From Antedon mediterranea (Eukaryota > Echinodermata > Crinoidea > Comatulida > Antedonidae), in contig NC_092673.1 of NCBI RefSeq assembly GCF_964355755.1, forward strand, positions 24,867,001 to 24,931,000: DNA of 64,000 nucleotides, given 5' to 3'. The position numbers and the translations under genes are program-made. The notes under the pieces are model-generated. The model worked only from the letters and a program-made list of their open reading frames with translations, made no database searches and was not told the origin of the DNA. Shown piece by piece: positions 200 through 53,047 of this stretch; position 1 is the first letter of the stretch; each line of letters opens with the position of its first letter.

Positions 200-296
200 C
201 ATTATTATGTATCTGGACGTTGTTGAAAATTCCAAAAGCATAACAACCGTTGATCATCAGCGACAAAAGAGCAAATGCAATCATTCTGGTCCTCAT
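200..296 (-). CDS. L1: signal-peptide exon 1 of array peptide gene (gene cut by window edge)
   Basis: Exon 1 only; the remaining exons would lie left of position 1. The ATG is at 296 and the splice donor (G|GTAAAT) follows base 200, giving 97 nt and phase 1, exactly as in L2 and L6. It encodes 32 residues: MRTR, a hydrophobic core (MIAFALLSLMI), NGCYA as the likely signal-peptidase site, then FGIFNNVQIHNN. Bases 1-199 are intron 1. The product should be a secreted four-cysteine peptide by analogy with the complete copies. Function unknown. Confidence 0.75.
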
Positions 297-480
297 TTTA
301 GTTGATTTACACAGCAATACACAATGTAGAATAAAGTAAACTTCTCAGTTGAAGCAATACTCTGGAAATGGTCAGTTTCACTCAAACTTTACTTGTTATA
401 ACAACATCTTCAAATGATAATAATGTATAATTTAAACGAACGGAATAATGCCACGTGATGTCTAAGTGCGTTTCTTCATA
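297..480 (-). promoter_or_regulatory. L1 upstream block with E-box
   Basis: E-box CACGTG at 452-457, 156 bp before the ATG. Toward the gene follow a TATA-like AT-rich stretch (around 424-438) and the leader block shared by the family (GAAACTGACCATTTCCAG and TTTACTTTATTCTACA). No transcription start can be proven. Confidence 0.45.
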
Positions 481-699
481 AAGTACATATATTATTTATT
501 ATTATATCATCATGATAATGGTCTATTCTATTATTAATAATTAGGAAATCCGTTTTACAAATTTCTCAAACCGAAATTAGAGTAAAATAACGCAATCAAC
601 GTATAGTTTGTCCGAACGATGGCACATATTTTTTTCGACAATTCCAGCTGTCCTAACCAAAATTACGACATGGAACCGGGGCTGATTAAAAAAAAAGAC

Positions 700-1786: not shown

Positions 1787-4279
1787 TTACTTTTTAGGAC
1801 AAGGACTTGTTAAGCCTGAAAAATAAACGAAAAATGTATTCAATCAACAATAAATATATTGTTAAAGCAATTTTAATAAAAAATTATGGTAAATATAATA
1901 TAATACAAATATCACATCAAATCTATTATGCATTTATTCAAAATGTTTCATAATAAGCATTGTTTTTCTCATAAATAATATTCAAAGGTTATTAAATATT
2001 GTAGAAATTAACCGATGTTAATTTAACTCATTCTAAAGCTCTGTTTACACTATCAAACTTTATGTGACAACAAAATGTGATGTTCCCAAATATAGACATG
2101 ATGATGATCACTACCATATTTTGGCATATTACTACCATATTTAGGCACATCACACTTTTTTGTCAAACTAGTTTGATAGTGTAGACAGAGCTTTAGATTT
2201 AACAAATCTTACTTTTTGAGCAAACTGGTTTTTCTCTTTTTGGTTGTGCTGGTAGTCGGTTTCGTGCTTTCTTCTCTATTTCATTCCTTTCTTCCTGTAT
2301 TTCGTTTCTTTCTTTCTCCTCTTCGTAATTCAATAAACATCCCATCAGTGTTCTTGAAGCCAGTATCTCCCAAACAGGATAACAGATATCTTTCTTTCCA
2401 ACATCTAAAAATCCAATAATAGGCCTATATTTATACGAGAATGCAATTTTACTAAATTAAATTATTTAAGGCCGTGTTTCCACAGCAATAACAAGTATTA
2501 TCTGTTGTTTTTTTAACCAATCAAATAACAAAATAACAAATACAATGTGCGCATGATAATTTATTACCGAACACCAAACGCTTAATCGCAACTCAACAAT
2601 TTGTCCTTCACGTCTCCTCCAAAACCACTGAACGGTACGTGCTCACATTTGGCACACTGATGTTTATTTAGCGGCCGCACACGATAGGCTGTCATTTTAC
2701 TGAATTTTATATGTATCAAATAATTAATACACCACGAAAAACACCCAAATAATATATTTTGGCATTTTATACTTTCATTAGTGTTTGCGTGCATCATCTA
2801 ATTCACACAGAACAATTTTTCTTTAGCGTTTTTTATTTTCGCGAAGTCTGAACAGTCAAAAGTAAAGTATAAAGTTCCATATCCAGTATTGCTTTCATTT
2901 TTTAGTCTACATATATTACCAAGTGAATGGATTTTGTATAACAAATTAAAATATAGTAATATATTGATATAATTTGTTTTTATTTTAATAATAGCATATG
3001 TCAAAGTACTTTTATCAGAGTGCGCTTTTATTATACTTGCCCATGCAAAGTATATAACCACCCACATAAGGCAGAAAAAGACCGTGCGGAAGTCAGTTAT
3101 TATTTATCGATTGGAATCGGCTAAACCCTTTTCACTTTATCGGTTAATTATCGTATATTTTTTGTCGGTTAATGTTGGGCTGCGGAAACACGGCCTAATT
3201 TGTTCCCGGAAGAAGTGTAACAGTTACCGATAAGCCCGGATTCCGGTTGGTGACCGGAAAAAAAATTAGTAAAAAATAGGTGCGCAATCGGAACCAACCA
3301 TGATAACGAAACAATACACTATACATTATTTTCTTTGCCTTCTTAGGAAAAATATTTTAATAGCAATAGAAATAGGTTTGAACTGTTACAACAAATGCGA
3401 AATATTAAAACTCTCAAAAATAAAAAAAAATAAAAATTTATATCAAATGAATTTGCTCAAATCAATAGTACTAAGAAGGATTTATTCATCATTATTAGGC
3501 ATACTTGAATATATTTTTTTTGTAAGTTTATTTCTTTTAGGAATTCTTTCCGTATAATATTTTGTTTCAAGTAGCTATCAGGTCATACTGATTATGAAGT
3601 TGAAGATGAATATCATTTTGTTACAGTTTGCTCTCGTTACAAGGAAATCAGAAAAAAATTTATACCTTCTTTATTTTTTGAAAATCCAAATACTTTTAAA
3701 TTCTGCCGTTTAATGTCATCACAGGATCCAATAATTATTGATAATCTATCTAAATATATTTATCATGCTTATAAGTTAAGATATATGTTTTGCTTAGAGA
3801 ACGAAATTAATTAATTCATTTATCTTGTGACCATAAATTGCTTTATTTTTCAATGTAATTATTATTTTGTTAATTACTAGGGGCCAGAGGCCTAAAGTAA
3901 ATAAAGTCAGGCGATAAGCCTGAATGAATGAATGATTAAGATACTACCATGCTAGAGCAAAGCCATAAGAACAAACATACATGGAACTGGATTCATGGAG
4001 GGAAACCTCTTTGAAAGAACTGATAAATCATAAAACAAATGTTTCTTTCACTTCAGAAATTAGTCCGCGTCCCATAAGCCCTTTCTATTAAAGAGCTTAT
4101 CAGATATACTGATTAAATAGAGGTGTACTTAAATATTATGATCAAACATTGTCTAACTAGTAAAAATACAAAATACATTTACCATTATTATGTATCTGGA
4201 CGTTGTTGAAATTTCCAAATCCAAAACAATCGTTGATCATCAGCGAAAAAAGAGCAAATGCAATCATTCTGGTCTTCAT
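1787..4279 (-). CDS. L2: secreted four-cysteine peptide gene, three exons, intact
   Basis: Exons: 4183-4279 (97 nt), 2213-2404 (192 nt), 1787-1815 (29 nt); all junctions GT-AG, phases 1 and 1; total 106 codons, 105 residues. Exon 1 gives a signal peptide (MKTRMIAFALFSLMI, then NDCFG) and FGNFNNVQIHNN. Exon 2 gives DVGKKDICYPVWEILASRTL, MGC, LLNYEEEKER, two imperfect NEIQ/NEIE heptads, a basic tail and KPVCSK. Exon 3 gives the variable end LTSPCPKK then stop. Cysteine spacing is C-x14-C-x38-C-x7-C. I know no named family with this layout; an extracellular disulfide-bonded peptide is inferred from the signal peptide and paired cysteines. Intron 1 contains a MITE (2467-3197) and a LINE tail (3582-3935); intron 2 contains another MITE (2034-2195). 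Confidence 0.8.
2034..2195. mobile_element. MITE, TIR starting AAAGCTCTGTCTACACTATC (family a)
   Basis: Arms AAAGCTCTGTTTACACTATC on the left and its inverted counterpart ending GTGTAGACAGAGCTTT on the right, flanked by TA. No coding capacity. Located in L2 intron 2; a copy sits at the matching place in L6 (17656-17815), so the insertion is older than that duplication. Confidence 0.75.
2467..3197. mobile_element. TIR element AGGCCGTGTTTCC (family c), long version
   Basis: Left end TAAGGCCGTGTTTCCACAGC; right end GCTGCGGAAACACGGCCTA. Flanked by TA, about 730 bp, in L2 intron 1 just before exon 2. A 299-bp version occupies the same site in L6 (18099-18397), so either extra sequence was gained here or lost there. 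No transposase frame seen. Confidence 0.7.
3582..3935 (+). mobile_element. LINE 3' fragment with reverse-transcriptase C-terminal tail
   Basis: Open frame 3582-3814 (GHTDYEVEDEYHFVTVCSRY..., ending at a stop) matches the end of many LINE ORF2 proteins (VEDEYHFL-C-Y-LR-F pattern). It is followed by a 3' UTR and a short AATG tail (about 3922-3934). 5' truncated; lies antisense in L2 intron 1. Confidence 0.65.
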
Positions 4280-7035: not shown

Positions 7036-7960
7036 TTCAATTCAATTCAATTCAATTAAAACTTTATTATCCCCATGGCGAAACTCTGTTGGCCTTTTGA
7101 AAAGTACAGTACATACAAATATAAAATGGATACAGTACATAAAATATAAAATACGATAAAAAAAGCCATACAAAATATACATATAAAATCCTAAAAAGTC
7201 GATTTAAAATACTACAAAAAATAAAACTAGCGCAAAAAATACGATTATACGATTATATAATGAATGATATTATCATTCATTATATAATCGTATAGCGGCA
7301 AGGACGAATGAATTGCCATATCTATTTGTTTTAATTTTTCTTTGAAGGAGTCTGTCACAACGTTGACTTTTGTTAAATTTATAGTGCAGAGGATGAGCGT
7401 GGTCTTTTAAAATAATTTTCAATATTTTAATTACTAATTCCTTATATAAAACTTCAGGTTGAATTTGTTCAGAGCCTACTATTCTACTGCCTTGTTTAAC
7501 TATTTTATTAAGTAAAAGTCTATCTTTAAAACGTGAATTACCATAATAACATATTAGGCAAAAACTAAGTACACTGTTTAAGATAGAAGTATAAAAAAGT
7601 TGTAAAATAGTACGGTCAATCTTAAAAGAGTTTAATTTGCGTAGAAAGAAGAGACGTTTTTGTAATTTATTGTATATGCACCTACTATTTGCATCAAATT
7701 TAAGTTTATTATCAATTTCAACCCCTAAATATTTGTAAGTTTTAACTTCCGGAATGGTCTCACCATTGATTTTGATCTTGGGAAGGTAGTTTATCTTCTT
7801 CCGAAAATCAAAAACCATCTCTTTAGTTTTATTTATATTTAGATCTAAAAAATTATCTTTACACCATTTGTGAAAAATATTAATACTGTCTAAGAAGCCT
7901 GTCATTGAATCATCTTTTTTATCTTTTAAAGGTGTCTGAATACAATTATATAAAGGATAG
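7036..7960 (-). mobile_element. 5'-truncated L2/Maui-like LINE with (ATTGA)n tail
   Basis: A frame from about 7960 to 7273 encodes the post-catalytic part of a LINE reverse transcriptase: NKTKEMVFDFRKK, YKYLGVEIDNKL, RLFFLRKLNSF, SFCLICYYGN and a C-terminal RYGNSFVLAAIRLYN, the pattern of the L2/Maui group. The 3' UTR ends in ATTGA units at 7036-7057. The polymerase core with YADD is missing, so the copy cannot move itself. Confidence 0.75.
7247..7293. repeat. Perfect short palindrome at the LINE stop codon
   Basis: Arms 7247-7268 and 7272-7293 are perfect inverted copies (22 nt each) with a 3-nt centre. It overlaps the last codons of the LINE frame. Confidence 0.8.
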
Positions 7961-9902: not shown

Positions 9903-9909
9903 TTTTTAA

Positions 9910-14463: not shown

Positions 14464-15108
14464 TGATAATGCTAGGTCTTGTATTTATACCACAACCCGA
14501 TCCTGCAGCTGTTTCTAGTAGATTGTAACTGATTATTGACAGTGATAACATGTATTAAAATTACTGAATACACACACTCGTATCAGTTACAATTTACCTA
14601 GAGACACCTGTAGAATCCTGATCTCTTTGATATTGTACAATATTATCAGGTTGTCTTGAGTTAAGGCCGCTACACTTAGGACGATCGACGATAAATAGGT
14701 ACACTTAGGCCTATATTTGTATTGAATAAAACAAAAGAAATTATAAAGAATTTCATTCTATTATATGATAACGATTTATGCTGTGTTTGATAATAATATT
14801 GTTCGATCGATATCGTTCTAGTATAAAAAGTATAGACGTTTTCAATTTTACTCAGACATTCATACTTGGCGACACGTTTGTTTTCATTAACAAATTATCT
14901 GAGTATAGCAAGTGCGGTGCATGTATCCGATTGATATTCCTTTTTGATCGGTTCATAGGCCACCCCACCGATCAACACCCCAAAAAAGACAAACAAAGAA
15001 TATTAATAATTTACCATTATCCTGGCTTTGTGTGGTGGAATTCTTAACAGAAAAACAGTGGTTGATCACCAGCAAAAACACAGGGAATGCGATAATCCTG
15101 GTCTCCAT

Positions 15109-17393: not shown

Positions 17394-19536
17394 TTAAGGA
17401 CAAATAGACGGCACTGAAAAATTGAAAATAAACGAAAAATATATTCAATCAACACTAAATGCATTGTTAAAGCCATTTTAATAAAGTTATGGTAAATATA
17501 TAATACAAATATCACATCAAATCTATATGCATTTATTCAAAATGTTTTATAACAAGAATCGTTATTGTTTTCTCATAAATAATATTCAAAAGTTATTAAA
17601 TATTGCAGGAATTAACCAATGTTGTTATTGTTAAATAATAATTGTAACCAATTTTTAAGCTCTATCTACACTATCCAACTTATGTTACAACAAAATGTGA
17701 TGTGCCCATAAATAGACATGATGATGATCACTACCAAATGTTGGCATGTCACTACCTTATTTGGGCACATTACACTTTGTTGTCGAACTAATTTAATAGT
17801 GTAGACAGAGCTTTAGATTTAAACGCAACACATCTTACTTAATTGGCATTGTGGTTTTATTGGTGATGGTGGTGGATTTTCTCCGTTCTTCTTCCCCCTT
17901 TCTTTCTGTATTTCGTTTCTTTCTTTCTGTATTTCATTCCTTTCTTTCTCCTCTTCGTAATTCAAGAAACATCCCATCAGTGTTCTTGAAGCCAGTATCT
18001 CCCAAACAGGATAACAGACATCTTTCTTTCCAACATCTAAAAATCCAATAATAGGCCTATATTTATACAAGAATTCCATTTTACTAAATCAAATTAATTA
18101 AGGCCGTGTTTCCGCAGCAATAACAAACATCTGTTAATTTTTCAACCAATCAGATAATAAATAAATGTGCGCCTGAGAAAATAAAGAAAGATCAGTTATT
18201 ACCGAATACAACCCAACTTTCGTTGCTGTTGGTTTTGATGAAATAAAATAAAATAAATATACAATTTGTCCTTCAAGTCAAATGTTCACAATTATTATTA
18301 TTATGGAAGCGGCTAAACTCCTTTTCACATGAACTTTATCTGTTAATTACCGGTTAATTTTTTTCGGTTAATGTTTGGCTGGTGAAAACACGGCTTAATT
18401 GTTCCGGGATGAAGTGCAATAGTTAAAAATAAGCCCGGATTCCGGTTGGGTGACCGAAAAAAATATTAGTAAAAAATGGTTTAGTGTTGGACACATACGG
18501 ATTTGAACCGGTACGTGGGATGTACGATATCGATCAATGGAAACAATCGTACAGATGTGATCTAACCAAAATGTAAGTTCCGCTCGTTCTGAACCACACA
18601 TGATAACAAGAAAATCTACTATACACTATAACCTTTTTTTTTCTTAGGATAATTATTTAATAATAATTTATGTTTTACAATGAAAGCGAATATTATAAAT
18701 CTCTAAAAAATAAAACCGTAGAAGTGAAAACGTTGACACAATCAACATTATATCAAATAAAAAAAAAATATCAAAATAAATAGTAGTAAAAAGGAATTAT
18801 TCATCAGTATTAGGCATACTTGCGAATCTATTCATTTTCTTAGAAATATTTGGAACTTTGGTTCTAGGAAAAATTCAGTATTTTGTTTCAAATAGTTAAA
18901 GATGTATTTTCCCCCTGCAAAACTAATTATTTAAATTGTTGAATATGCCATTTTAATGCCACATAATAGTTATCCACTTTTACCAAAAATTAGATTAAAA
19001 AAATAATTATTTACCTGAAAAAACTGTAATTTAATGCAAAAAAATTAATCAAATTGGCTGCCAGCCAATGGATTTTTGGTTGAATTTAACCATTTATTTT
19101 GTCATTTTATAAGTGAAAACACTATTTCTTTTTGTTTTTACTACAGAAGTGATTAACTTGATTAAAACTACAAAATAACCTATCTTAATTGTTCATGTTT
19201 TTGAGGAACTATTATTAGACTGATGATTAAGATCAGCTAGAGCAAACCATGAGAACGAACATAAATTGAACTGGGTCCATGAATAAAATCATAAAATATG
19301 TTTCTTTCATTTCAGAAATTAGTCCGCGTCCCATATAAGCCCTGAGCTTATCAGATTTACTGATTAAATAGAGGTGTACTTAAATATTATGATCAAACAT
19401 TGTCTAACTAGTAAAAATACAAAATTAAAATACATATACCATTATTATGTATCTGGACGTTGTTTAAAATTCCAAAAGCATAACAATCGTTGATCATCAG
19501 CAAAAACAGAGCAAATGCAATCATTCTGGTCCTCAT
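17394..19536 (-). CDS. L6: secreted four-cysteine peptide gene, intact
   Basis: Exons 19440-19536 (97 nt), 17839-18036 (198 nt), 17394-17413 (20 nt); 104 residues. Exon 1: MRTRMIAFALFLLMINDCYA signal, then FGILNNVQIHNN. Exon 2: DVGKKDVCYPVWEILASRTL, MGC, FLNYEEEKER, two perfect KERNEIQ heptads, a Gly/Pro-rich stretch (GENPPPSPIK) and PQCQLS. Exon 3: MPSICP then stop. Framework C-x14-C-x40-C-x7-C. Closest in layout to L2 and L7. Intron 1 holds a family c TIR element and a family b MITE, intron 2 a family a MITE. Confidence 0.8.
17656..17815. mobile_element. Family a MITE in L6 intron 2
   Basis: Ends TTAAGCTCTATCTACACTAT and GTGTAGACAGAGCTTTA. Same site as in L2. Confidence 0.75.
18099..18397. 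mobile_element. Family c TIR element, short version
   Basis: Ends TAAGGCCGTGTTTCCGCAGC and GGTGAAAACACGGCTTA; 299 bp including the TA flanks. Same site as 2467-3197 in L2. Confidence 0.7.
18478..18575 (-). repeat. tRNA-like SINE fragment
   Basis: On the minus strand GGTTCAAATCC (18492-18502) is a good Pol III B box, preceded by CCCACGTACC. A related piece is at 22840-22930 with GGTTTAAATCT. No full tRNA cloverleaf made out. Confidence 0.35.
18896..19210. mobile_element. Family b MITE in L6 intron 1
   Basis: Starts TTAAAGATGTATTTTCCCCC; internal GGCTGCCAGCCAATGG and CATTTATTTTGTCATTTTAT shared with other copies in reverse; right end decayed. Confidence 0.6.
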
Positions 19537-25913: not shown

Positions 25914-27071
25914 CTATCGTTTACCACATGGAGCTGGGGCTGAAAAATCAAAAAAAAAAGTTGTCGGCTCATGAATAAATCAATTAATGCATTCAGCATT
26001 CATAATATGTTTAAAGCTCTACACTATAAAACTATATGTGAACAAAAATGTGATGTGATGAACACTACCGTATTTGGGCACATCACACTTTTTTGTCACT
26101 AACTAATTTTGATATTGTAGACAGACTTTAACAAACCATAAAATGACAAATTGATAATACTGTACATTCAAATGAAGCTATGAAACTATGAAAATATTTT
26201 TTCTTAAATAAATTATATTGCATGCAATTAATAAAATCGATTGATGCAGTTAATCTTAAGCCGTTTTTTTTTTCAGTAGGTGAATTTGTTTGCGATAATC
26301 GAAAGCGTCTGCTTATACACATGCGTATTAATGTTTCCATCTTTCAAATCCCTCTCTACGCATGCGTATAAGCTGACTCTTTCGATTCGCGCGAACAAAT
26401 TCGCCTAGTGGAAAATAGGCTTAATGCATTAACGTGTTCAAAATATTGAAATTTATTTACATACAGACACATTCCGGTTTCCCTCGTTTGAATGTTTTAT
26501 CCTTCTGTATTTTATTTCTTTCCTTCTGTATTTCATTTCTTTCTTTCTCATCTTCGTAATTCAATAAGCATTTCATCAACGTATTCGAAGTCAATATCTC
26601 CCAAACAGGATAACAAACATCATTTATTTTAACATCTGTAAAATACAATATCATCTGACTCATTTATAATTATCATTTTACTATTAGGCTATTTTAAATA
26701 ACTTATTTCGATATGTTATTTTTCTTCAGAAAAATGAGCCTGCGTCTCACGTGCCGTGCCTTGGTCTTGAATGGCTGATCAAAAGTACGTCGCAGGTAGC
26801 AAATATCATGCAATTTATAACAGCCCATCAATACCCACCCGCAAAAGTATGTATATAATAATTTACAATTATCCACAAACCTATTAATATTCCAAAAACC
26901 AAAACAGTTAATTTTGTTATCCATAAAACATCGTTCAATTTAATACATATCTCACCCAAAAATGTATAACTTACTATTATTTATCTCCACGTGGTAGAAA
27001 GGTAATCCAAAAGCATAACAACCGTTGCTAAGCAGCAAAAACAGAGCAAATGCAATCATTCTGGTCCTCAT
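25914..27071 (-). CDS. L9: secreted four-cysteine peptide gene, intact, compact
   Basis: Exons 26975-27071 (97 nt), 26465-26635 (171 nt), 25914-25939 (26 nt); 97 residues. Signal MRTRMIAFALFLLLSNGCYA, then FGLPFYHVEINN, a different N-terminal segment from L1-L7. Exon 2: NVKINDVCYPVWEILTSNTL, MKC, LLNYEDEKER, NEIQKERNKIQKD, then KRGKPECV. The donor used is T|GTATGT; the next codons would end at an in-frame TAA, so splicing here is inferred from phase and exon 3. Exon 3: PAPCGKR then stop. Framework C-x14-C-x32-C-x5-C. The C-terminal GKR could be trimmed and amidated, but that is speculation. Confidence 0.78.
26012..26130. mobile_element. Family a MITE, shortened, in L9 intron 2
   Basis: TAAAGCTCTACACTATAAAA on the left, TGATATTGTAGACAGACTTTA on the right with GGGCACATCACACTTTTTTG between. 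Confidence 0.65.
26257..26423. mobile_element. Family e MITE (TTTTCCACTAGGCGAA type), decayed
   Basis: Right end GAACAAATTCGCCTAGTGGA then AAATAGGCTTA; left end TAAGCCGTTTTTTTTTTCAG then GTGAATTTGTTTGCG. In L9 intron 2. Full copy at 38354-38714. Confidence 0.65.
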
Positions 27072-28460: not shown

Positions 28461-29521
28461 CTATCGTTTAGGACATAAAACTGAGCCTGAAAAAAAAAAT
28501 CATCAATCGAAAATTTATAGCAATTACATTCATTTTTTCCAGGCACCTGCCTTTATTTCATCTGTAGGCCATGGGCCCATAGATTTACATTATATACAGT
28601 AAGGTTGACTCTCTCCTATTTACAATACATTGACAGATTAACATAAGCATTTACATCTGTTAGTAGTTAGTTAGTAAATAAATAAAATAAATAATTCAGT
28701 TTAGTTCAGTTCATCACAAAAATAAATAAATCAAATTATTTATATATGTATAAAATCAAATAAACCACATGCTCTTATACATTATATTTGATTTGAAGTT
28801 ATTCAATAATATAATTAATAACGATTTCTTTTTCAAGGATAATTATAATCAATTGTAAACGCAAATCACTAGAAATCTTACTTTGGCATGTTGGTTTTTT
28901 TCTTTTCTCCACTATTTCTTTTATTTCTTTCTGTATTTCGTTTCTTTCTTTCTGTATTTCATTCCTTTCCTTCTCGTCTTCGTAGTTCAATAAACATCTC
29001 GTCAACGTTTTTGAAGTCAATATCTCCCAAACTGGGTAACATATATCATGAATTTTAACATCTGTAAATACAATTTAAAAAATTACAAATAATGTTATTT
29101 GAATGATTAATATTCATTGATTTCGTTTTTTATTCTTCAGAAAAATTTGCTGACTAAATTTAAAAGTACGTGGGTTGCTGAATATTTTGTTATCCATCAA
29201 ATATAATCAAACTCGTCTCAACCTCCCCCACCAGCCAACCCCCACCCCAAATAACAATCGTAGTATGCCTACTGTATATATTAAGTTTCCATTATCCATA
29301 AACCTATTCGTATTAAAAAGCAGAACAACTGATGATTGTGTCCATAAAACATAGTCCAACTCTTCCTATCCACCCCACCAACCTTTCATCCGAAAAATCG
29401 TAACTTAAATAATTTAAAATTTACCATTATTTAAATCCACCTGGTAGAACGGTAATCCAAAAGCATAACAACCGTTGCTAAGCAGCAAAAACAGAGAAAA
29501 TGCAATCATTCTGGTTCTCAT
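28461..29521 (-). CDS. L10: secreted four-cysteine peptide gene, intact
   Basis: Exons 29425-29521 (97 nt), 28882-29061 (180 nt), 28461-28486 (26 nt); 100 residues. Signal MRTRMIAFSLFLLLSNGCYA, then FGLPFYQVDLNN. Exon 2: DVKIHDICYPVWEILTSKTL, TRC, LLNYEDEKER, two KERNEIQ heptads extended by EIKEIVEKRKK, PTCQ. Exon 3: SVLCPKR then stop. Framework C-x14-C-x35-C-x5-C. The linker is continuous Glu/Lys/Ile heptad text and could form an amphipathic helix. Sister of L9 by exon 1, intron lengths and exon 2. Confidence 0.8.
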
Positions 29522-33111: not shown

Positions 33112-34215
33112 TTAACATAGACCAGTGACTGAAATATTACAGAAAAAATACAAAAGATTCAATCCACATTGTGAATATTAATCAACAAATAATATCGATC
33201 GAACAGCCATAAATTTCGTTAAGCTATAATATGATTTAATGAGGTTATTGTTTCAAAATTCATTCATTCAATGAAATAAAGAACGATTATTTAAAGTTCT
33301 TCAATTATTCTCATATTTGTTGCTGTAATCATATTGAAACTAAACTATAATTAATAAAGGTAAAATCAAATATTGCATCTTGTACATGGGTCACATTTAA
33401 ATGAATTCAATGCCCTAATAATGCTATGTAATTAATTTAAACTTTTAAAACAATAGAAAAAAATCACTAATCTTCACTGAATCAACTGTGAGTATTTACA
33501 AGCAAAAATATACTTACAGTTGCACCCCGGTTCGTTTCGTTTAATTGATTCGTTTGGTTGACCCTTTCCCTTCGGTATTATTTCCTTCGGTATTTCGTTT
33601 CTTTCTTTCTGTATTTCATTCCTTTCTTTCTCCTCTTCGTAATTCAATAAACATCCGATCAGTGTTCTTGAAGCCAGTATTTCCGAAACAGGATAACACA
33701 TATTATTCTTTTCAACATCTAAAAAATACAATATTAATTATTACAAAATATAACAATAAAATTAATGTATTATTATTATGAATGTTACTGTTATTACAAA
33801 TAATATTCATTTCGAAATGTTCTTTTCTTCTTCAGAAAAATGGGTTTTCGTCCCAAGTGCAGTATCCATGCCTTGGTGTTGACTGGCTGATTACAACTAC
33901 GTGATAGACAGATATTTCTTTGTATCTTCTACCTCATCTCAGCCCACCAGCCAACCCCCACAACCGCCAAAAAATCAAACATTGTAAGTATATAACAATT
34001 TACTATCTTCCAAAAACTTAACCAAACGTATTCTAAAAACCAGAAAAAATTTGATTATCAGAAATTATTGTCCAATACTTCTCTACCACCCACATGAAGA
34101 AAAGAAAATCTTAAATTTATAATTTACCATTATTTATCTCAACGTGGTAGAAAGGTAATACAAAAGCAAAACATCCGTTAATCAGCATGAAAACAACAAT
34201 CATTCCGGTCCTCAT
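33112..34215 (-). CDS. L11: secreted four-cysteine peptide gene, intact
   Basis: Exons 34128-34215 (88 nt), 33518-33718 (201 nt), 33112-33128 (17 nt); 101 residues. Exon 1 is 9 nt shorter within the signal peptide (MRTGMIVVFMLINGCFA), then FVLPFYHVEINN. Exon 2: DVEKNNMCYPVSEILASRTL (the usual Trp after PV is Ser), IGC, LLNYEEEKER, NEIQ/NEIP heptads, a long basic tail with GKGQPNESIKRN, EPGCN. Exon 3: TGLC then stop. Framework C-x14-C-x42-C-x5-C, the longest linker in the array. Its 3' UTR contains a LINE. Confidence 0.78.
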
Positions 34216-36844: not shown

Positions 36845-37652
36845 CTAACATATAGCTGGGGCTGAAATAAAAACATTTTTTTTTTTAATATTAAAAGAGT
36901 TCACAGATTTGTTTTCAATCAATGACACAATAAATGAAACAAAAATGTAGATCTAATATCTTACAGTGACATTCAACATCATTTTTTTCTCTGTATTTCT
37001 TTTCTTTCTTTCTCGTCTTCGTAACTGCGTAAACACTCTGTCACCTTTTGAAAAGTCTCCAACTCCCGAGCAGAATAACAGATATCATCTGTTCAATCTC
37101 TAAAAACACAATTAATGATAATTCAAGTATATTAATTCTTCATTACTACTGGTGTTGTTTTATTTGTTTACCAATATAATAATGTGGTTAGGTCACCATC
37201 CTAAGATTCAATTGCAAACATTCGGGAATCTAAAAACAAAATACTGTAACACCAGCATAAATCAAAACAGCATTAAACATGACGATGTAGACTTGCCCCA
37301 AGTCTGTATTGTATTTTTTTTATTTTATTTTTTTTATTTCGACCGCGATTTTTGTCTGAAATCCAAACTCAAGTAATACACGTATGAAACGCCATATGTG
37401 CAAAAATATTTATATTTTTACTAATAATATTAAGAAAAAACTCCGTCTGGAGCCCAGACTAATGACGATGATAACAATACATAAACGAAAAATCATTGAA
37501 GAGATATGGAAATAAAATTGTAAATTAAAAAAAAAACACAAACAATATTTACGAAAATTCGAGCTTTGTGGGAGGAGGAGGTTGTTTCTAAAAGCAAACG
37601 AACTGTTGATTACCAACAAAAACAGAGCAAATGCAATCATTCTGGTCCTCAT
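36845..37652 (-). pseudogene. L12: array peptide gene with frame damage in exon 2
   Basis: Exon 1 37553-37652 (100 nt) is sound: MRTRMIAFALFLLVINSSFA, then FRNNLLLPQSSNF. Exon 2 has two problems. From the usual acceptor (exon from 37099) one base is missing before ATCTGTTATTC; an acceptor 11 nt farther in (CAG, exon from 37088) would repair the frame (DICYSARELETFQKVTEC). Then a run of seven A (36977-36983) leads to TGA, where six A would continue to VECH and the regular phase-1 donor at 36965. Exon 3 36845-36861 (PAIC, stop) is sound. As written, the last two cysteines are lost. Either a young pseudogene or a homopolymer base-call error. Confidence 0.65.
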
Positions 37653-39488: not shown

Positions 39489-40795
39489 CTACTGATTTTC
39501 TTTTGCTTTTGCTTTATGTTCTTTTTGTCCTTTTTCCGGCATACAAATAGCTGAAGACCCTGAAATAAAAAGAGAAATGAACATATAATATAATAAACAA
39601 TTTTATAATTTAATCAAAAAATGCATGAATCGAAAATATCAACAGTTGTCATGAGCAGCTTAACAAATCACATTAAATAATACATTCAACTCTATTAATA
39701 AATCCTTTTATCGAAAAATGTGTAGATCAGAATGATTCATATCAGTTATAGATTAAATTCAATCAAATATAACTATATTATTTTACAAATACGTTATTTC
39801 ATAAGTGGTAGTCAATTTGAAGGTATTTTGATAAACAGATTTGTGCTTATTCATTAGGGAGGTTTCGCAACCTTACGAATACGATAACGAAAACGGATAC
39901 GTCATACATTTGTGAAACTTTTGAGCTGATCCCCATTTCATATTCGTAAAGTGTATTCGTGATGACGAATATCACCAGTCATATTCGTAACTACAAAACG
40001 AATATAATTTTTGATCTATTTAGCACATTTTGCATTTGAATCAGGAATGATTCATGATTATAATATAATACTAGATTTAGGCCTATTGAAAGTAATTTAC
40101 TAAAGTAATTTACTAAAATGCCAAGTCAATTTTGATAAATAGCAGTTTTTAAAGTCCTCACTCGCTTTGATGTTACGCTTCGCTCAAATTTACCGCAGTC
40201 ATATTTTGAACGCGCCTCAATATTTCGTTGCCATGCGAAACAGATTTTTTTATGGCTTACGAAAACGAATACGTGTCCGTGACGTATCCGTTTTCGTTAT
40301 CGTATTCGTAAGATAGCGAAACCTCTCTAATAAACGACACATAAACGAAAACAAAATATTAGATATAATATCTTACCACATCCTTTTTTTATCGGTATTT
40401 CTTTACTTTTTTTCTCCTCTTCATAGTCCAATAAACATTTTATCAGGATTTCTGAATTGTCTAACTCTCGAATAGGATAACAGATATCCTCTGGTTCAAC
40501 ATCTAAAACACAATAATGTTAATTGTTAATAATTAAATTGTTAGAATATATATAATATAAAAGACCATAATTAATTGTAAAAATTACACCAGCATAAAAA
40601 AAATGACGATGATAAAAATACATAAAAGGAAAGAGATATGAAAATAAAATTATAAATAAAAACAGAAAAAAAACCAAAAACAATATATTATTTACCAAAA
40701 TCAGAGCGTTGTGGGCCTGGGAAGTTATTCCAAAAAGCAAAGGAACTGTTGATTACCATAAAAAACAGAGAAAGCGCAATCATTCTGGTCCTCAT
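39489..40795 (-). CDS. L13: secreted four-cysteine peptide gene, intact, short linker and long tail
   Basis: Exons 40696-40795 (100 nt), 40377-40502 (126 nt), 39489-39559 (71 nt); 98 residues. Signal MRTRMIALSLFFMVINSSFA, then FWNNFPGPQRSDF. Exon 2: DVEPEDICYPIRELDNSEIL, IKC, LLDYEEEKKSKEIPIKKGCG; the heptads are reduced to one. Exon 3: SSAICMP followed by a charged tail EKGQKEHKAKAKENQ after the last cysteine, unique in the array. Framework C-x14-C-x18-C-x5-C. Intron 2 contains a complete MITE (39855-40329). Confidence 0.8.
39855..40329. mobile_element. MITE with GGGAGGTTTCGC ends (family f)
   Basis: TA-flanked; left GGGAGGTTTCGCAACCTTAC then GAATACGATAACG, right the inverse ending CGAAACCTCTC; arms about 50 bp with three mismatches. 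475 bp. In L13 intron 2. Confidence 0.85.
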
Positions 40796-41995: not shown

Positions 41996-42758
41996 TTGTA
42001 TTGTTGTCGCATACCAGACTCGTCGGAACCAAACCGAGTGCGTTTTGTCTTATTAATCGTAGCGTTGCTGTTTTCAATGCCCAAGAATCTCCCGACTTTT
42101 TATAGAAGAACATTTAGGCCTACTTTAGAACAATAGGGTATTATTAATTAATTAATTAATTAATGTTGTATTTTGTTAGCGGATGCATGATTATCAAAAT
42201 GAGGCTTTCCGGCCGCGATTTTTTTCGCGGCTGGAACTCATCTTTATACACGCCATACATTATAAAAGTTCGTTCACTGTAAACCGAAGGTCCGACCCGG
42301 CCTCCGGGTTGAGTTACGTTTTTCATTCACACATACAGGATCCGGAATAAGACTGTATACTGTACTCTTGCATTTTAGAGGTAGTCCCTAACTGATGAAT
42401 CTCCGTGCGACCACCTACCGTAAGCGGCCACCTCAGCTCCCTTAACGGCTCATGTGAAAAGTGAAATTACAATTTAATTTGAATTTTAAATCTCGGGAAT
42501 TGTTTTGGTAAATATTCTCAATGAATTTACCTTGAATTGAATTTACCTTGAATCGCCACAGTCTATTTTCTTTCGAATGTTGTGTAATTCCACATGTATT
42601 ACCAAAAAAAACACATTAAAATAAATAGATATAACAAAACTAAACTAAATTTATTTACCAATATCCGAGCGTTGTGGGCCTTGGAAACTATTCCAAAAAG
42701 CAAATGAGCTGTTGATTACCAACAAAAAAAGAGCAAACGCAATCATTCTGGTCCTCAT
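41848..42758 (-). pseudogene. L14: array gene with exons 1 and 3 but no exon 2 found
   Basis: Exon 1 42659-42758 (100 nt) is sound: MRTRMIAFALFLLVINSSFA, then FWNSFQGPQRSDI, with a good donor. Exon 3 41848-41873: TGPCPGR then stop, acceptor TTTTTCAG. No exon-2 match (CYPxxEI...C...YEEEK) exists in the 0.8 kb between. Direct splicing of exon 1 to 3 stays in frame because both junctions are phase 1, and would give a 41-residue precursor with one mature cysteine. More likely a deletion pseudogene. A weak GGGAGATTCTTGG match near 42082-42100 is not convincing. Confidence 0.65.
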
Positions 42759-44586: not shown

Positions 44587-45528
44587 CTAATAATTATGTC
44601 TTTTATCATAAGGACATTGACCGGTACCTGAAAGAAAATAAGAAAGAAGACAAATGAACAGAATCAGTAACATTTAAAACATTTAAAACTACCTTGCACT
44701 GATTAGTGCAAATTGTCATGGCTGTTTTACATTATCATTTTTGCTTATTTTATTTCCTTTTATATTTTTCTCCATTGAGATCCAGCCTCTGATACCTCTG
44801 ATATACTTTTTTATAAACAACTATTGTTGAAAAACATTTAATATTTTAATTATTAAAACAGTTTTTGATATTATATGAATAATAAATAAAACACAATGAT
44901 GAACTAAATCGTATTTATAAATTAAAATATTAGATATTTTATTAGTGATTTTCTATATTGACTGTTTTCTGCATGTACGTATATTGTTATTATTTCTGCA
45001 GTGTATATAAGAGGAATTTCTAATGTATTTTTATATTGGACCAAATAAAGAATTGAATTGAATTGAATAATGTCTTACCGAACGGGCCACAGCCTTTTTT
45101 TTTCTCTGGTATTCTTTTTCTTTCTTTCTCCTCTTTGTAATCGTGTAAACATTTCATCACAATTTTTGAAGTCTCTAACTCCCGAGTAGAAAAACAGATA
45201 TCTTCTGTCTCAACCTCTAAAAATACAATAATGAGAATTAAAACTAAGTGTACTATTTTCTTTTTTTACAGTCCTAATTAATTCATATGAATCCGTTGCT
45301 ATGGGGCCTATTTGTTTCCATTGAGGATCATAGCATATACTGAAACTACAACTATATAAAACCATTTTCAACAGAATTAAAGATATAAAAATGACCAAAA
45401 AATGGCCTATAAATATAAATTAATTTACCAAAATCAGAGCGTTTTGGGCCTGGCAGGTTGTTCCAAAAAGCAAATGAGCTGTTGATTACCAACAAAAACA
45501 GAGCAAGCGCAATCATTCTGGTCCTCAT
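44587..45528 (-). CDS. L15: secreted four-cysteine peptide gene, intact, shortest locus
   Basis: Exons 45429-45528 (100 nt), 45079-45216 (138 nt), 44587-44627 (41 nt); 92 residues in under 1 kb. Signal MRTRMIALALFLLVINSSFA, then FWNNLPGPKRSDF. Exon 2: EVETEDICFSTRELETSKIV, MKC, LHDYKEEKERKRIPEKKK, GCGPF; a run of nine A keeps the frame, unlike L12. Exon 3: TGQCPYDKRHNY then stop. Framework C-x14-C-x19-C-x7-C. Intron 2 ends against a plus-strand LINE tail with ATTGA units (45051-45067). Confidence 0.8.
44940..45068 (+). mobile_element. LINE 3' tail with (ATTGA)n
   Basis: ATATTGGACCAAATAAAGAATTGAATTGAATTGAAT is a typical L2/CR1 3' end; no coding part. It lies in L15 intron 2, 10 bp from the exon 2 donor. 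Confidence 0.5.
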
Positions 45529-47050: not shown

Positions 47051-47690
47051 GTCTAGTCGAATTTAGCGGGGTCTGCCAGGACTAAGGTAATGCATAAGGG
47101 GTCTGTAATAGACCATTCGGTATGTAGTCGAATTTAGCGGGGTCTGCCAGGACTAAGGCAATTCATACGGGGTCTGTAATAGACCATTCGGTATGTAGTC
47201 GAATTTAGCGGGGTCTGCCAGGACTAAGGCAATTCATACGGGGTCTGTAATAGACCATTCGGTATCTAGTCGAATTTAGCGGGGTCTGCCAGGACTAAGG
47301 CAATGCATAATGGGTCTGTAATAGACCATTCGGTATCTAGTCGAATTTAGCGGGGTCTGCCAGGACTAAGGCAATGCATAAGGGGGTCTTTAATAGACCA
47401 TTCGGTATCTAGTCGAATTTAGCGGGGTCTGCCAGGACTAAGGCAATTCATAAGGGGTCTGTAATAGACCATTCGGTATCTAGTCGAATTTAGCGGGGTC
47501 TGCCAGGACTAAGGCAATTCATAAGGGGGTATGTAATAGACCATTCGGTATCTAGTCGAATTTAGCGGGGTCTGCCAGGACTAAGGCAATGCATAAGGGG
47601 TCTGTAATAGACCATTCGGTATCTAGTCGAATTTAGCGAGGTCTGCCAGGACTAAGGCAATGCATAAGGGGGTCTGTAATTCGGTATTTC
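47051..47690. repeat. 71-bp satellite, nine tandem copies
   Basis: Unit TCTAGTCGAATTTAGCGGGG + TCTGCCAGGACTAAGGCAAT + GCATAAGGGGTCTGTAATAG + ACCATTCGGTA. Copies are 95% or more alike by eye. Between L15 and L16. Confidence 0.9.
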
Positions 47691-48269: not shown

Positions 48270-49038
48270 ACGAATACAAACAATTGAAAAATACAAAAAT
48301 GTACGTATTATATATATTCAACAACTATTGAATCAAGCTACTACCACTGTAGAAATATTATTTTATTATTAAATTATTTTACCAATTCAAATTCATGTAT
48401 TACCATATCGTAGGCCTAACTCAATAACAAATAATACACCAAAAACTGTATTGTTTGTTGAGATGTCATAAAACATTACATGGGATCGGAAGTACAAACA
48501 ACAAAAATGAATTGATAGGGATTAAACGAAAAGACGTGATAGGCTTGCTTGCTATACTATATTATATCAACTTGATTTATTCACGAGACTGAATGTACAG
48601 TACAACTCGTTCAATCAACATTGATTGTTTTTACACAAGTTCGTGATATTACGCACTAATACAACTTTTCATTTAATTGATTCCAAATTTATTTAGTCAT
48701 CAATTACGTCATAATTGCAATACAACTGATAACAAGGATCCTGCATTAAAAAGCTGTATCTTCGTTTTTTTGTAGGACCCTTTTATATAAAAACAATATA
48801 AGTAAATAGAACACCATATAAATACGAAAAAAAAGAAAGAAAACAAATTGAAATTGAAAAAAAAAAAAAAATAGCAGAATCCCTTCCACCTGGCACCTCT
48901 ATTTAGGGAACACCATACCGGTACTTCCCGCGTAAACGGGAACCCCTATTCAAATGTCTCTCTTATTCAACAGAGATGAGAGCATCATCAATATTCAGGG
49001 CATTCATAGAGTACGGTTGGTTGAGTCTTCTTATGGTC

Positions 49039-52000
49039 TTAGCATGGTCCTGTTACTGAAATATTGCAAAAAAATGTGTTTTAATGAACAAATTCATCAC
49101 TAAAAAAACTTAACATTTCTTTAAGTTTTAAGTTTATTTCTTATCGTAATTGTTACCGTAAATCTTCTAAATTTTAACCCTGGGTTATTATTCTTTAATT
49201 GTTTTTTAGGGTGGGTTACTATTAGAAGGGGGTTACTATTAGAGTAGTGGGTTACTATTACTAATCTTAAATTAGGCACCTGAAAATAGTAACCCACCCC
49301 AACTTTTCCGGTCAGCAAATCATAGCAAAATAATAAAACAGTACAGATAAACTCAAAAACACTCAATCCTCCCCACTCCCGAGATCAACATGCATTATCT
49401 CCTTGTTTTTAAAATACGGCTGCATCATAAACGACCAGTCTTCATAAATGTCATTTTGTCAATAGTTTTTGTGAATCTAATATTAACCCCGATGGGTTAC
49501 TATTAGAGTAGTGGGTTGTTATTATTATAGATTAACTTATAACGTGCGTTACTATTAGAAGGAGGGTTACTATTAGAAGGGGGGTTACTATTAGAGTGTG
49601 GGTTACTATTAGAGCGTGGGTTACTATTAGAGTGTGGGTTACTATTAGAGTGTGGGTTACTATTAGAAGGGGGGTTACTATTAGAGTGTGGGTTACTATT
49701 AGAGTGTGGGTTACTATTAGAAGGGGGGTTACTATTAGAGTGTGGGTTACTATTAGAAGGGGGGTTACTATTAGAAGGGGGGTTACTATTAGAGGGGGGT
49801 TACTATTAGAGTGTGGGTTACTATTAGAAGGGGGGTTACTATTAGAAGGGGGGTTACTATTAGAAGGTGGGTTACTATTAGAGTGTGGGTTACTATTAGA
49901 AGGGGGGTTACTATTAGAAGGGGGGTTACTATTAGAGTGTGGGTTACTATTAGAAGGGGGGTTACTATTAGAGTGTGGGTTGTTACTTTTATAGATTAAC
50001 TTATAACGTGCGTTGCTATTAGAAGGGGGTTACTATTAGAGTGTGGGTTGTTATTATTATAGATTAACTTATAACGTGCGTTGCTATTAGAAGGGGGGTT
50101 ACTATTAGAAGGGGGGTTACTATTAGAGTGTGGGTTACTATTAGAGTGTGGGTTACTATTAAAGTGTGGGTTACTATTAAAGTGTGGGTTACTATTAGAG
50201 TGTGGGTTACTATTAGAGTAGTGGATTATTATTATTATAGATTAACTTATAACGTGCGTTACTATTTCAAAGGGGGTTACTATTAGAGTGTGGGTTACTA
50301 TTAGAGTGTGGGTTACTATTAGAGTGTGGGTTACTATTAAAGTGTGGGTTACTATTAAAGTGTGGGTTACTATTAGAGTGTGGGTTACTATTAAAGTGTG
50401 GGTTACTATTAAAGTGTGGGTTACTATTAGAGTGTGGGTTACTATTAAAGTGTGGGTTACTATTAAAGTGTGGGTTACTATTAGAGTGTGGGTTACTATT
50501 AAAGTGTGGGTTACTATTAAAGTGTGGGTTACTATTAGAGTGTGGGTTACTATTAGAGTGTGGGTTACTATTAAAGTGTGGGTTACTATTAGAGTGTGGG
50601 TTACTATTAGAGTAGTGGATTATTATTATTATAGATTAACTTATAACGTGCGTTACTATTAGAAGGGGGGTTACTATTAGAGTGTGGGTTACTATTAGAG
50701 TGTGGGTAACTATTAGAGTGTGGGTTACTATTAGAAGGGGGGTTACTATTAGAGTAGTGGGTTACTATTAGAGTGTGGGTTACTATTAGAAGGGGGGTTA
50801 CTATTAGAGTGTGGGTTACTATTAGAAGGGGGGTTACTATTAGAGTAGTGGGTTACTATTAGAGTGTGGGTTACTATTAGAGTGTGGGTTACTATTAGAG
50901 TGTGGGTTACTATTAGAAGGGGGGTTACTATTAGAGTAGTGGGTTACTATTAGAGTGTGGGTTACTATTAGAGTGTGGGTTACTATTAAAGTGTGGGTTA
51001 CTATTAGAGTGTGGGTTACTATTAGAAGGAGGGTTACTATTAGAGTGTGGGTTGTTATTAGAGTAGTGGATTATTATTATTATAGATTATCTTATAACGT
51101 GCGTTACTATTAGAAGGGGGGTTACTATTAGAGTGTGGGTTATTATTAGAGTGTGGGTTACTATTAGAGTGTGGGTTACTATTAGAAGGGGGGTTACTAT
51201 TAGAGTAGTGGGTTACTATTAGAGTGTGGGTTACTATTAGAAGGGGTTACTATTAGAGTGTGGGTTACTATTAGAGTAGTGGGTTGTTATTATTATAGAT
51301 TAACTTATAACGTGCGTTACTATTAGAAGGGGGGTTACTATTAGAGTGTGGGTTACTATTAGAAGGAGGGTTACTATTAGAGTGTGGGTTACTATTAGAG
51401 TAGTGGGTTGTTATTATTATAGATTAACTTATAACGTGCGTTGCTATTAGAAGGGGGGTTACTATTAGAGTAGTGGGTTGTTATTATTATAGATTAACTT
51501 ATAACGTGCGTTACTATTAGAAGGGGGGTTACAAGAGTGTGGGTTACTATTAAAGTGTGGGTTACTATTAGAAGGGGGTTACTATTAGAGTGTGGGTTAC
51601 TATTAGAAGGAGGGTTACTATTAGAGTGTGGGTTACTATTAGAGTGTGGGTTACTATTAGAAGGGGGGTTACTATTAGAGTGTGGGTTACTATTAGAGCG
51701 TGGGTTACTATTAAAAGATTTACGGTATTGACTGCTTCTCAAAGCAGGGAAATGTAATTCTCCCTTTTCAAATAAAGTATAGTCACATCGCATCAATTTA
51801 ATTCTACATTATTCAATCAAAGAAAATGAGATACTATAATTGTTATTTATTTAAGTTGTAATGAAATAAAGCATGTATGTTATTTTTGTTTTGTTCAATC
51901 TAACAAGACCGTATCAAGGGTGAGAACGAAGCCTTTTCCTGGCGTGCCCTTTTCATTTCTTTTCGGACTAGAGATCATCAGCAATAGTAATAATTGATAA

Positions 52001-53047
52001 TGCTTAACTAGCCTATTATATTGCTTATAACGATGATGATTTATGCCTCTTTTGGTGACATAAGCTTCTATTTGTGTAAAAAAGAACCCCCTGTAGAAAC
52101 CCTGAGTATCTGCTACTATAGGCCTAAAAAGTCACTTAAAAATAGATAAAGGTATCTTACAATGACAAGAAACAGCACCGGCCCTCTTTTCCTCCAATCG
52201 CTGTATTGCTTTCTTGGCTTCGTAATTTACTATACATCTCCTCAGCGTGTCTGAAGCCCGTATCTCCGAATTAGAATAACAGATAGGCCTTTCAACATCT
52301 AGAAATATTATAATAATAATAATCATCATAACAATAACATGCCTAGAAGTATATTAATGATATTAAATAATATGCAGTAATCATAATAATAATTATATCT
52401 AAAATTTATTTTTTGTGTTTCTTTAAATTCTAATAATATTAGCATTTTATTGTCCTTACTGGTGAATCCGATCTTTAAGAAAATGTATTAATTTAAGTTT
52501 TATGATAGACTCTATTGCTGTCAAATAGCTCAATATTAATCAGTGTCGATTCATATTATACACCCCTGGGAAATGAATGCAACAAGCTCTTTGATCCTAT
52601 AATGCATTTTAATAATTTAAATTGAATAACGGTTCAGATATCAGATATTAAAACAAAAATTAGCAATCATTATTATTAAAATCAATTAATTCAAATACAA
52701 AATAAACAAAAATGTCAAACGTTTGAGCTAAAATCAAATAAGAAATTAAAGCAACATATTAGATATATTATTACATCCGTGGCTCTGTACATAGGATCTA
52801 ATAACATCTTTATTAACTACGGTATCATTTATACAGTATTCAACTCGTCTCCAACACCCCGCCAAAAACCAATCACCAACCAATACACTCGAAATTAACA
52901 ACCCACCAAAAAAAAAAAACAACCTAATAACACATAGATAAATAATAATAATTTACCTTTAGCCCGACGTTCTATAAATATATTTCCAAACACAATATAT
53001 GTGTTGATCAACAGAAAAAGCAGAGAAAATGCAGTTTTGTTACTCAT
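49039..53047 (-). CDS. L16: most divergent four-cysteine peptide gene, intact, minisatellite in intron 2
   Basis: Exons 52957-53047 (91 nt), 52161-52298 (138 nt), 49039-49055 (17 nt); 81 residues. Signal MSNKTAFSLLFLLINTYIVFG lacks the MRTR start of all others; then NIFIERRAK. Exon 2: DVERPICYSNSEIRASDTLR, RC, IVNYEAKKAIQRLEEKRAGA, VSCH; no KERNEIQ heptads. Exon 3: TGPC then stop. Framework C-x14-C-x22-C-x5-C kept exactly, as are exon phases, which argues for function. Intron 2 is 3.1 kb because of the 18-bp minisatellite. It is the outermost copy of the array. Confidence 0.75.
49205..51717. repeat. 18-bp minisatellite GGGTTACTATTAGAGTGT with higher-order blocks
   Basis: Well over 100 copies of GGGTTACTATTAGAGTGT and GGGTTACTATTAGAAGGG, broken into blocks by a recurring spacer GATTAACTTATAACGTGCGT (near 49521, 49993, 50060, 50239, 50634, 51086, 51298, 51421, 51490). 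Because 18 is a multiple of 3, frames stay open (VWVTIR or SNSNPH repeats); these are artefacts. Located in L16 intron 2. Confidence 0.9.

Follow-up and report, generated by a model that had tools for sequence, protein, structure and literature searches.

A tandem array of genes for putative secreted four-cysteine peptide precursors in the crinoid Antedon mediterranea

The window analysed here, a 64,000-nucleotide stretch of the crinoid Antedon mediterranea genome (contig NC_092673.1), holds nine intact genes of a tandem family, together with a tenth that extends past its left edge. Judged from sequence, the family may consist of secreted peptide precursors, to date found in one crinoid species only. 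Our preferred reading, held tentatively, is that each precursor would combine a signal peptide, a conserved two-cysteine helical pro-part, a KR cleavage site and a variable monocyclic C-terminal peptide. The wider proposal of a lineage-specific effector or signalling family is plausible. Crinoids are the earliest-branching living echinoderm class. The array yields a concrete, testable set of ten predicted secreted peptides, nine with exact exon coordinates and half not found among NCBI proteins.

Structure of the array

Four spliced models are letter-for-letter identical to NCBI "uncharacterized proteins" from the same species (P0001-P0004) and a fifth such protein, P0005, begins with the exon at 296-200, so those junctions are backed by independent gene prediction. 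The features, all on the minus strand, are as follows.

200..296, minus: G0 exon 1 (leader), start of P0005; remainder of gene left of the window
1787..1815, minus: G1 exon 3 (C4), in P0003
2213..2404, minus: G1 exon 2 (C1, C2, heptads, C3), in P0003
4183..4279, minus: G1 exon 1, in P0003
12002..14047 (14047-14017 and 12047-12002), minus: G15 exon 2, weak remnants with reverse transcriptase DNA between
15015..15108, minus: G15 exon 1, from the exon-1 profile; exon 2 split
17394..17413, minus: G19 exon 3, in P0002
17839..18036, minus: G19 exon 2, in P0002
19440..19536, minus: G19 exon 1, in P0002
21635..21654, minus: G23 exon 3, in P0001
21950..22141, minus: G23 exon 2, in P0001
23458..23560, minus: G23 exon 1, in P0001
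24238..24386, minus: exon 1 relic, ATA in place of ATG
25914..25939, minus: G27 exon 3, ending C-G-K-R stop
26465..26635, minus: G27 exon 2, spliced model
26975..27071, minus: G27 exon 1; G27 not found among NCBI proteins
28461..28486, minus: G29 exon 3, in P0004
28882..29061, minus: G29 exon 2, in P0004
29425..29521, minus: G29 exon 1, in P0004
33112..33128, minus: G34 exon 3, splice-acceptor scan
33518..33718, minus: G34 exon 2 (mosaic), spliced model
34128..34215, minus: G34 exon 1, spliced model
37553..37652, minus: G37 exon 1; exon 2 frame-shifted (about 37098-36965), exon 3 at 36861
39489..39559, minus: G40 exon 3, splice-acceptor scan
40377..40502, minus: G40 exon 2, spliced model
40696..40795, minus: G40 exon 1, spliced model
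42659..42758, minus: G42 exon 1, without recognisable exon 2; exon-3-like copy at 41873
44587..44627, minus: G45 exon 3, splice-acceptor scan, coordinates set by hand
45079..45216, minus: G45 exon 2, coordinates set by hand
45429..45528, minus: G45 exon 1, spliced model
49039..49055, minus: G53 exon 3, splice-acceptor scan
52161..52298, minus: G53 exon 2, spliced model
52957..53047, minus: G53 exon 1, spliced model

An exon-1 profile made from 12 copies matches 14 sites (E 3.7e-67 to 3.7e-24), every one of them on the minus strand, including two copies left out of profile building (15217-15007, E 3.7e-24; 24386-24238, E 2.1e-36). Thirteen have both the ATG and a donor in phase 1, which reads GTAAAT in 11, GTAAGT in one and GTATAT in one; the relic at 24386-24238 has ATA where ATG is expected. 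Judged by eye, the putative signal peptide of most copies begins hydrophobic and has small residues ahead of position 21. Exon 2 encodes the conserved C1-x14-C2 segment, charged heptads of varying extent (consensus E-R-N-E-I-Q-K) and C3. Its profile, made from nine copies, gives ten matches (E 1.1e-31 to 6.4e-17), of which the tenth (52313-52209) is new. The split exon 2 is weak (14047-14017, best E 0.007; 12047-12002, best E 3.6e-4), and the RVT_1 region of an ORF sits between both remnants. Past their 3' ends, G1, G19 and G23 are followed by CAC/CAT-type repeats.

Exon 3 codes for C4 and the C terminus, only 4-22 residues. A placement adjoining conserved 3'-UTR-like blocks was rejected, as it supplied no fourth cysteine in the group-1 genes examined; NCBI models and a splice-acceptor scan corrected it. 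The scan gives 31 matches on the minus strand versus 12 on the plus strand, the former comprising 14 candidates (681, 1815, 10746, 11450, 17413, 21654, 25939, 28486, 33128, 36861, 39559, 41873, 44627 and 49055), four second AGs inside candidates, five at occurrences of a single 5'-UTR motif, and eight others. Nine of the 14 candidates belong to intact genes; because the scan also produces plus-strand and other minus-strand matches, the orphan copies at 681, 10746 and 11450 could be chance matches. Chance as the source of the repeats was rejected on the exon-profile matches and the plus-strand control for exon 3.

The exon profiles and nine complete ORFs bear out the original prediction of a multi-copy, putatively secreted four-cysteine family in an echinoderm host, and the same nine genes agree with its spliced proteins of 81-105 aa and uniform phases (1/1). 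Its exon inventory needs partial revision: ten whole copies of exon 2 and a split one stand, the latter as weak remnants, but exon 1 amounts to 13 copies with ATG plus one relic, and exon 3 to as many as 14 copies rather than 13. Likewise, the nine complete genes share the framework C-x14-C-x(18-42)-C-x(5, 6 or 7)-C; the earlier C3-C4 spacing of 5 or 7 omits G19, which has 6. All four cysteines are retained in 10/10 intact proteins, with C1 and C2 invariant.

The family matched no known one in the searches given below, but NCBI predictions, all uncharacterized, already cover five of the ten intact genes; the remaining five were without an entry in two profile searches. Searches of 5.8 billion proteins, one from a single sequence whose last residues were wrong and two from profiles, by a method that requires shared 5-residue words, returned only five Antedon proteins and no relatives outside A. 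mediterranea. An origin in a known family was rejected, given that Pfam yielded nothing above cut-off (four proteins, one with a wrong C-terminal tail and one without exon 3), NCBIfam gave matches below cut-off only (five proteins), the best PDB profile hit had E 0.76, and Rfam returned none at gathering score. No description of the Antedon four-cysteine family occurs among the literature matches listed.

Conservation and divergence of the copies

Copies within the array undergo duplication and disruption, and swap exon 2 sequence with one another. The mosaic exon 2 of G34 resembles those of G1, G19 and G23, and its preceding intron is closest to G27/G29. When distant copies are compared, coding sequence is conserved far better than intronic sequence: exon 2 of G23 shares 92-93% identity with those of G1 and G19, as against 34-53% for intron 1 stretches. 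Group-1 exon 2 is under constraint over codons 1-46, with a pooled pN/pS of 0.31 (15 pairs, six copies) and a dN/dS of 0.07 for G27-G29. Over codons 1-33 of eight exon-2 copies, pooled pN/pS is 0.64 and dN/dS exceeds 1 in seven of 28 pairs, five of which involve G45.

The C-terminal end is very variable: across the 45 pairs of ten proteins, mean identity is 65% from C1 to ten residues past C2 and 28% from C3 to the end. Between G1 and G19, a recent pair, identity in the exon-2 tail is 76% with 19 gap columns, versus 90-92% for non-coding DNA (Fisher p 0.0018, tail versus pooled non-coding) and 97% for the exon-2 head. Exon 3 of this pair differs in gaps, its substitutions not being raised (91%), and exon 1 (92%) is conserved no more highly than the introns. 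Tail acceleration is absent from the close pair G27/G29 (14 aligned bases, 86%). The fast tail change may be mutational, the tail being A-rich and slippage-prone.

A candidate precursor and its rivals

The pair KR is a classical convertase site. It lies at most eight residues before C3 in 7/10 genes versus 1.2 expected, a count whose eight-residue limit was set after looking and that draws on non-independent paralogs; with the genes grouped by hand into eight lineages and a merged pair scored if either member has KR, the count is 6/8 (P 2e-5). Among basic pairs in the same span only KR stands out: KK occurs in four genes versus 2.9 expected, RK in two versus 1.2 and RR in none versus 0.4, and any dibasic [KR][KR] in 8/10 versus 4.5, which is weak. 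KE falls below expectation (one versus 3.7). The three genes without KR before C3, G19, G23 and G40, have KK only, 13, 11 and 1 residues upstream, respectively. A dibasic pair follows shortly after C4 in 4/10 genes, with Gly before the pair in one of the four; G27 alone among the ten bears an amidation signal.

The four cysteines claimed at the outset are real, but they may not belong to a single unit: C1-C2 lie in the conserved part, C3-C4 in the variable tail that follows the over-represented KR site. In the precursor model that we prefer, removal of the signal would leave a helical pro-part that C1 and C2 stabilise and that carries a charged, likewise helical stalk; a prohormone-convertase-type enzyme would then cut ahead of C3, at KR or, in three genes, at KK. 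Carboxypeptidase trimming, with amidation in one gene, would yield a small single-ring peptide that C3 and C4 close, its predicted ring having 5-7 residues between the two cysteines, and each gene would have a peptide of its own. The variable peptide would do the work while the pro-part would serve in folding, sorting or delivery, a division of labour like that of cathelicidins or conopeptides, and the likely target would be a fast-changing extracellular partner, whether microbe, predator or mate. The array thereby offers a specific processing prediction, KR cleavage and a ring closed by C3-C4. The model draws on the nine complete ORFs with their consistent splice sites, the NCBI models, the coding conservation, the contrast between head and tail, and the KR count; weighing against it are the three genes with KK only, the possibly mutational change of the tail, the unaccelerated G27/G29 tail, the G1/G19 values for exons 1 and 3, the higher pN/pS over codons 1-33, the invariance of C1 and C2, and the weak fold predictions. 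Beyond this model lies a broader and somewhat less probable reading: a crinoid peptide-diversifying system in which a conserved two-cysteine helical carrier with its leader exon would deliver, through KR cleavage, a distinct disulphide-ring peptide per gene and would diversify by fast tail change and exon 2 exchange, an echinoderm counterpart of conopeptide and cathelicidin diversification.

Possible too, though we incline against it, is an uncleaved secreted miniprotein in which C1/C2 would pair with C3/C4, or else C1 with C2 and C3 with C4 inside a single chain, and in which a helix scaffold and heptad stalk would present the variable C-terminal loop as the recognition tip of an immune or gamete-recognition effector. 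Retention of four cysteines in every intact protein accords with it, as does the C1-C2 segment, the most conserved part, whose invariant cysteines also fit an intact four-cysteine protein. Fold predictions from five and ten sequences are of low confidence (pLDDT 54; pTM 0.25 and 0.27) and give no usable fold, but the two models agree on a long helix, in the second broken at invariant Ser51. However, the C2-C3 spacing ranges over 18-42 residues, whereas that of C1-C2 is always 14 and that of C3-C4 stays within 5-7, which looks like two independent units, and the enrichment of KR before C3 is left unexplained.

A neutral or structural secreted family, whether of mucus, adhesive or coelomic proteins, that expanded through tandem duplication and is weakly constrained in its tail, is quite improbable. 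The heptads are indeed repeat-like, with an exact 21-bp (heptad) tandem repeat in G23 exon 2 at 22004-22054, mature chains range in net charge from -4 to +4 (ten whole chains, the predicted small peptides not being scored apart), and G27/G29 lack tail acceleration; yet every intact copy keeps C3, C4 and an open frame despite changes in tail length, and the G1/G19 tail evolves faster than non-coding DNA. Membrane-active cationic antimicrobial peptides, which a tandem array of secreted cysteine peptides in an echinoderm might bring to mind, are very improbable in view of the near-neutral mature chains and of a C1-C2 segment that lacks amphipathicity, its helical hydrophobic moment being 0.01-0.23 in the 8/10 proteins computed.

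Relation to known systems

Known echinoderm antimicrobial peptides, such as strongylocins, centrocins, PpCrAMP and holothuroidins, are small and secreted, several with cysteines (PMC11767717, excerpted text). As described there, strongylocins are cationic with six cysteines, centrocins are heterodimers and PpCrAMP is a predicted beta-hairpin; all three differ from the four-cysteine, near-neutral Antedon chains. The 17 peptides counted in that excerpt come from one sea star, four urchins and one sea cucumber, with no crinoid among the sources (PMC11767717); the array would add a crinoid peptide set.

Vertebrate cathelicidins, in the portion of PMC3487008 available, combine a conserved signal and pro-part with a highly variable C-terminal peptide from the last exon, occur in gene clusters and, in one class, form a ring through a single disulphide. 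The Antedon model likewise has a conserved leader and pro-part, a variable C-terminal peptide and a gene cluster. Cathelicidin genes have four exons rather than three, and their cleavage is by elastase, whereas the Antedon chains are near neutral and their candidate cleavage is by a convertase. No Pfam match, the cathelin pro-domain included, rose above cut-off for four Antedon proteins, two with incomplete or wrong ends.

Within the same species, AmedPCNP3a/3b and AmedPCNP7 are predicted neuropeptide precursors recognised by basic-pair sites, with two- or four-cysteine peptides (PMC9793003, in extract). Compared by description only, they resemble the predicted products of the array as secreted precursors with two or four cysteines; their peptides are described in the extract as amidated (PMC9793003), whereas G27 alone of the ten has the corresponding signal.

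In sea urchins, the SpTransformer (Sp185/333) immune genes are clustered, small and lineage-restricted, with a conserved leader exon, a highly variable mosaic coding exon and adjoining short tandem repeats (PMC8634487, quoted in part). That partial account gives them two exons, whereas the Antedon genes have three coding exons in 9/9 complete copies and a fixed four-cysteine framework; no sequence relation to Trf proteins was detected in protein searches, which returned the five Antedon proteins only. The likeness extends to the CAC/CAT-type repeats beyond the 3' ends of three genes and in the mosaic exon 2 of G34.

A multi-copy gene family, partly annotated

The array of secreted four-cysteine peptide genes put forward in the original prediction is real, and part of it has already been predicted by NCBI. 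The window contains repeated blocks, and profiles built from 12 copies of exon 1 (the leader exon) and 9 copies of exon 2 (which codes the framework cysteines C1 to C3 and charged heptads) recovered 14 and 10 copies, respectively, every one on the minus strand, which bears out the array with small corrections. E-values of copies that entered the profiles are partly by construction; of the copies left out, two of exon 1 scored 3.7e-24 and 2.1e-36, and one of exon 2 scored 6.4e-17. All 13 ATG-bearing copies of exon 1 code a hydrophobic leader, and their donor (GTAAAT, GTAAGT or GTATAT) falls after the first base of a codon. Exon 3 copies, which code C4 and the C terminus, are short and mostly have TTTCAG as their acceptor; scans for an acceptor, an early Cys and a stop gave 31 minus-strand versus 12 plus-strand matches at the loosest setting and 9 versus 1 at the strictest. 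The accepted exon 3 copies are nine from intact genes plus two, at 36861 and 41873, from broken ones; three further candidates are uncertain. Both introns (193 to 3105 bases) are in phase 1 in 9/9 complete genes, in line with the uniform phases predicted.

Array genes (G handles, all minus strand) and relic:
G1, G19, G23: complete spliced ORFs of 105, 104 and 104 residues
G27, G29, G34: complete spliced ORFs of 97, 100 and 101 residues
G40, G45, G53: complete spliced ORFs of 98, 92 and 81 residues
G0: exon 1 alone inside the window
G15: broken gene, weak exon 2 remnants flanking reverse transcriptase DNA on both sides
G37: broken gene, frame-shifted
G42: broken gene, no recognisable exon 2
24386-24238: exon 1 relic

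A spliced model compared with 5.8 billion proteins gave five matches, all 'uncharacterized protein [Antedon mediterranea]' and all encoded on a 36.2-Mb contig. Four are identical in every residue to G23, G19, G1 and G29, and the fifth begins with exon 1 of G0. Nine-member and four-member profiles (3230 and 660 candidates scored) returned the same five and no others; G27, G34, G40, G45 and G53 were absent among the proteins returned by the single-sequence and two profile searches. No relatives beyond Antedon mediterranea were found in these searches, which depend on shared 5-residue words and could therefore miss diverged members in other crinoids. The family appears, as predicted, to be without a name in the literature and databases searched, and was found in this species alone among searchable data.

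Conserved head and variable tail

Residues 1-20 form the leader. In most copies residue 21 has, by eye, small residues ahead of it at -3 and -1, as the signal-peptide cleavage rule has it. In the predicted framework C-x14-C-x(18-42)-C-x(5/7)-C the first two spacings hold, C1-x14-C2 being constant and C2-C3 ranging from 18 to 42, and the last must be widened, as C3-C4 is 5, 6 or 7. V36, C42, E47, S51, C57, Y61, K65 and C3 are invariant in the alignment of ten exon-2 segments. The heptads follow the C1-C2 part, and in G23 their 21-bp unit is repeated exactly, in tandem. The ten mature chains (nine complete genes plus that of G0) carry net charges between -4 and +4. AlphaFold, run twice, reached pLDDT 53.6 and 54.2 and pTM 0.25 and 0.27; past the leader, the first model has a single helix (39-85), and the second has a low-confidence tail and helices 45-50 and 52-87, interrupted at invariant Ser51. 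At such low confidence, no fold is drawn.

Over all 45 pairs, mean identity is 63% in the leader, 40% from residue 22 to C1, 65% from C1 to C2+10, 30% from C2+11 to C3 and 28% from C3 to the end, the first two segments of G34 being displaced by its shorter leader. Between G1 and G19, identity is 90-92% in non-coding DNA, 97% in the exon-2 head (differences 3/99, p 0.055 versus pooled non-coding), 86% in the heptads, 91% in exon 3 (14 gap columns) and 92% in exon 1, a value not above that of introns. The exon-2 tail is 76% identical with 19 gap columns (p 6e-6), and differs at 12/50 positions versus 91/1019 in pooled non-coding DNA (p 0.0018), a signal of one pair in an alignment of A-rich DNA; tail acceleration was not repeated in G27/G29 (14 aligned bases, 86%; exon 3 73%, intron 2 79%).

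Among distant copies, the exons and 250 bases upstream of the ATG are conserved and introns mostly are not. Pooled pN/pS is 0.31 for exon 2 codons 1-46 in six group-1 copies (15 pairs), 0.64 for codons 1-33 in eight copies without G37 and G53 (28 pairs), and 0.49 for the 22-codon leader in 11/13 copies (55 pairs). For codons 1-33, dN/dS exceeds 1 in 7/28 pairs, five of which involve G45, for which few synonymous differences are counted. The end of G34 intron 1 is nearest to G27/G29 (74 and 71%), whereas its exon 2 is nearest to G19, G23 and G1 (92, 91, 89%); this exon was thus probably acquired by exchange. Synonymous divergence among G1, G19, G23 and G34 is low in exon 2, which agrees with the same process and implies that conversion affects the ratios there.

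The 300 bases upstream of exon-1 ATGs contain CACGTG in 10/13 copies and TGAAANNNACCATTT in 11/13; the aligned block, which holds both, also has what looks by eye like a TATA run, as well as a stretch common to the copies ahead of the ATG, and is possibly a shared promoter and 5' UTR.

Peptide precursor or four-cysteine protein

KR, the commonest convertase site, lies at most eight residues before C3 in 7/10 proteins, against 1.24 expected when the C2-C3 segment is shuffled, and other basic pairs are near expectation (RK 2 versus 1.2, KK 4 versus 2.9, RR 0 versus 0.4). Mainly because of this over-representation we prefer, and infer as the mechanism of the array products, a family of precursors in which cleavage at KR would release a small cyclic peptide closed by C3-C4. 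An intact, uncleaved four-cysteine protein is a close rival, and G19, G23 and G40 have no KR in that position. Dibasic pairs also follow C4 in G1 (P-K-K end), G29 (P-K-R end), G27 (G-K-R end) and G45.

Conopeptides are among the families in which a variable end follows a conserved leader or pro-part. The array is most like clustered families of this build, the cathelicidins (PMC3487008) and SpTransformer (PMC8634487) too; tested for membership of SpTransformer, cathelicidins and cationic antimicrobial peptides, it matched none.

Neighbouring elements

946-1202, 15573-15720, 16149-16296, 20587-20919: CAC/CAT-type short tandem repeats, 3' of G1, G19 and G23
7276-8001 (-): ORF with ALKBH8_N (1.6e-06, above cut-off) and weak RVT_1 (0.0083, below cut-off)
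11990-13807 (+): reverse transcriptase ORF (RVT_1 1.7e-35), its RVT_1 region between the weak G15 exon 2 pieces
15521-15820 and 16097-16396: local duplication downstream of G19, 99% identity
31564-32922 (-): reverse transcriptase ORF (RVT_1 8.9e-32)
47052-47680: 71-bp repeat unit, about 9 copies
49544-51717: 18-bp minisatellite, about 122 copies, within G53 intron 2
59885-60139 (+): NELF-A N-terminal coding exon (Pfam NELF-A_N E 2.7e-19)

The NELF-A exon lies right of the array on the opposite strand, and its match was the sole one above cut-off among the five ORFs scanned there, of 73 listed. The CAC/CAT-type repeats resemble those beside SpTransformer genes (PMC8634487).
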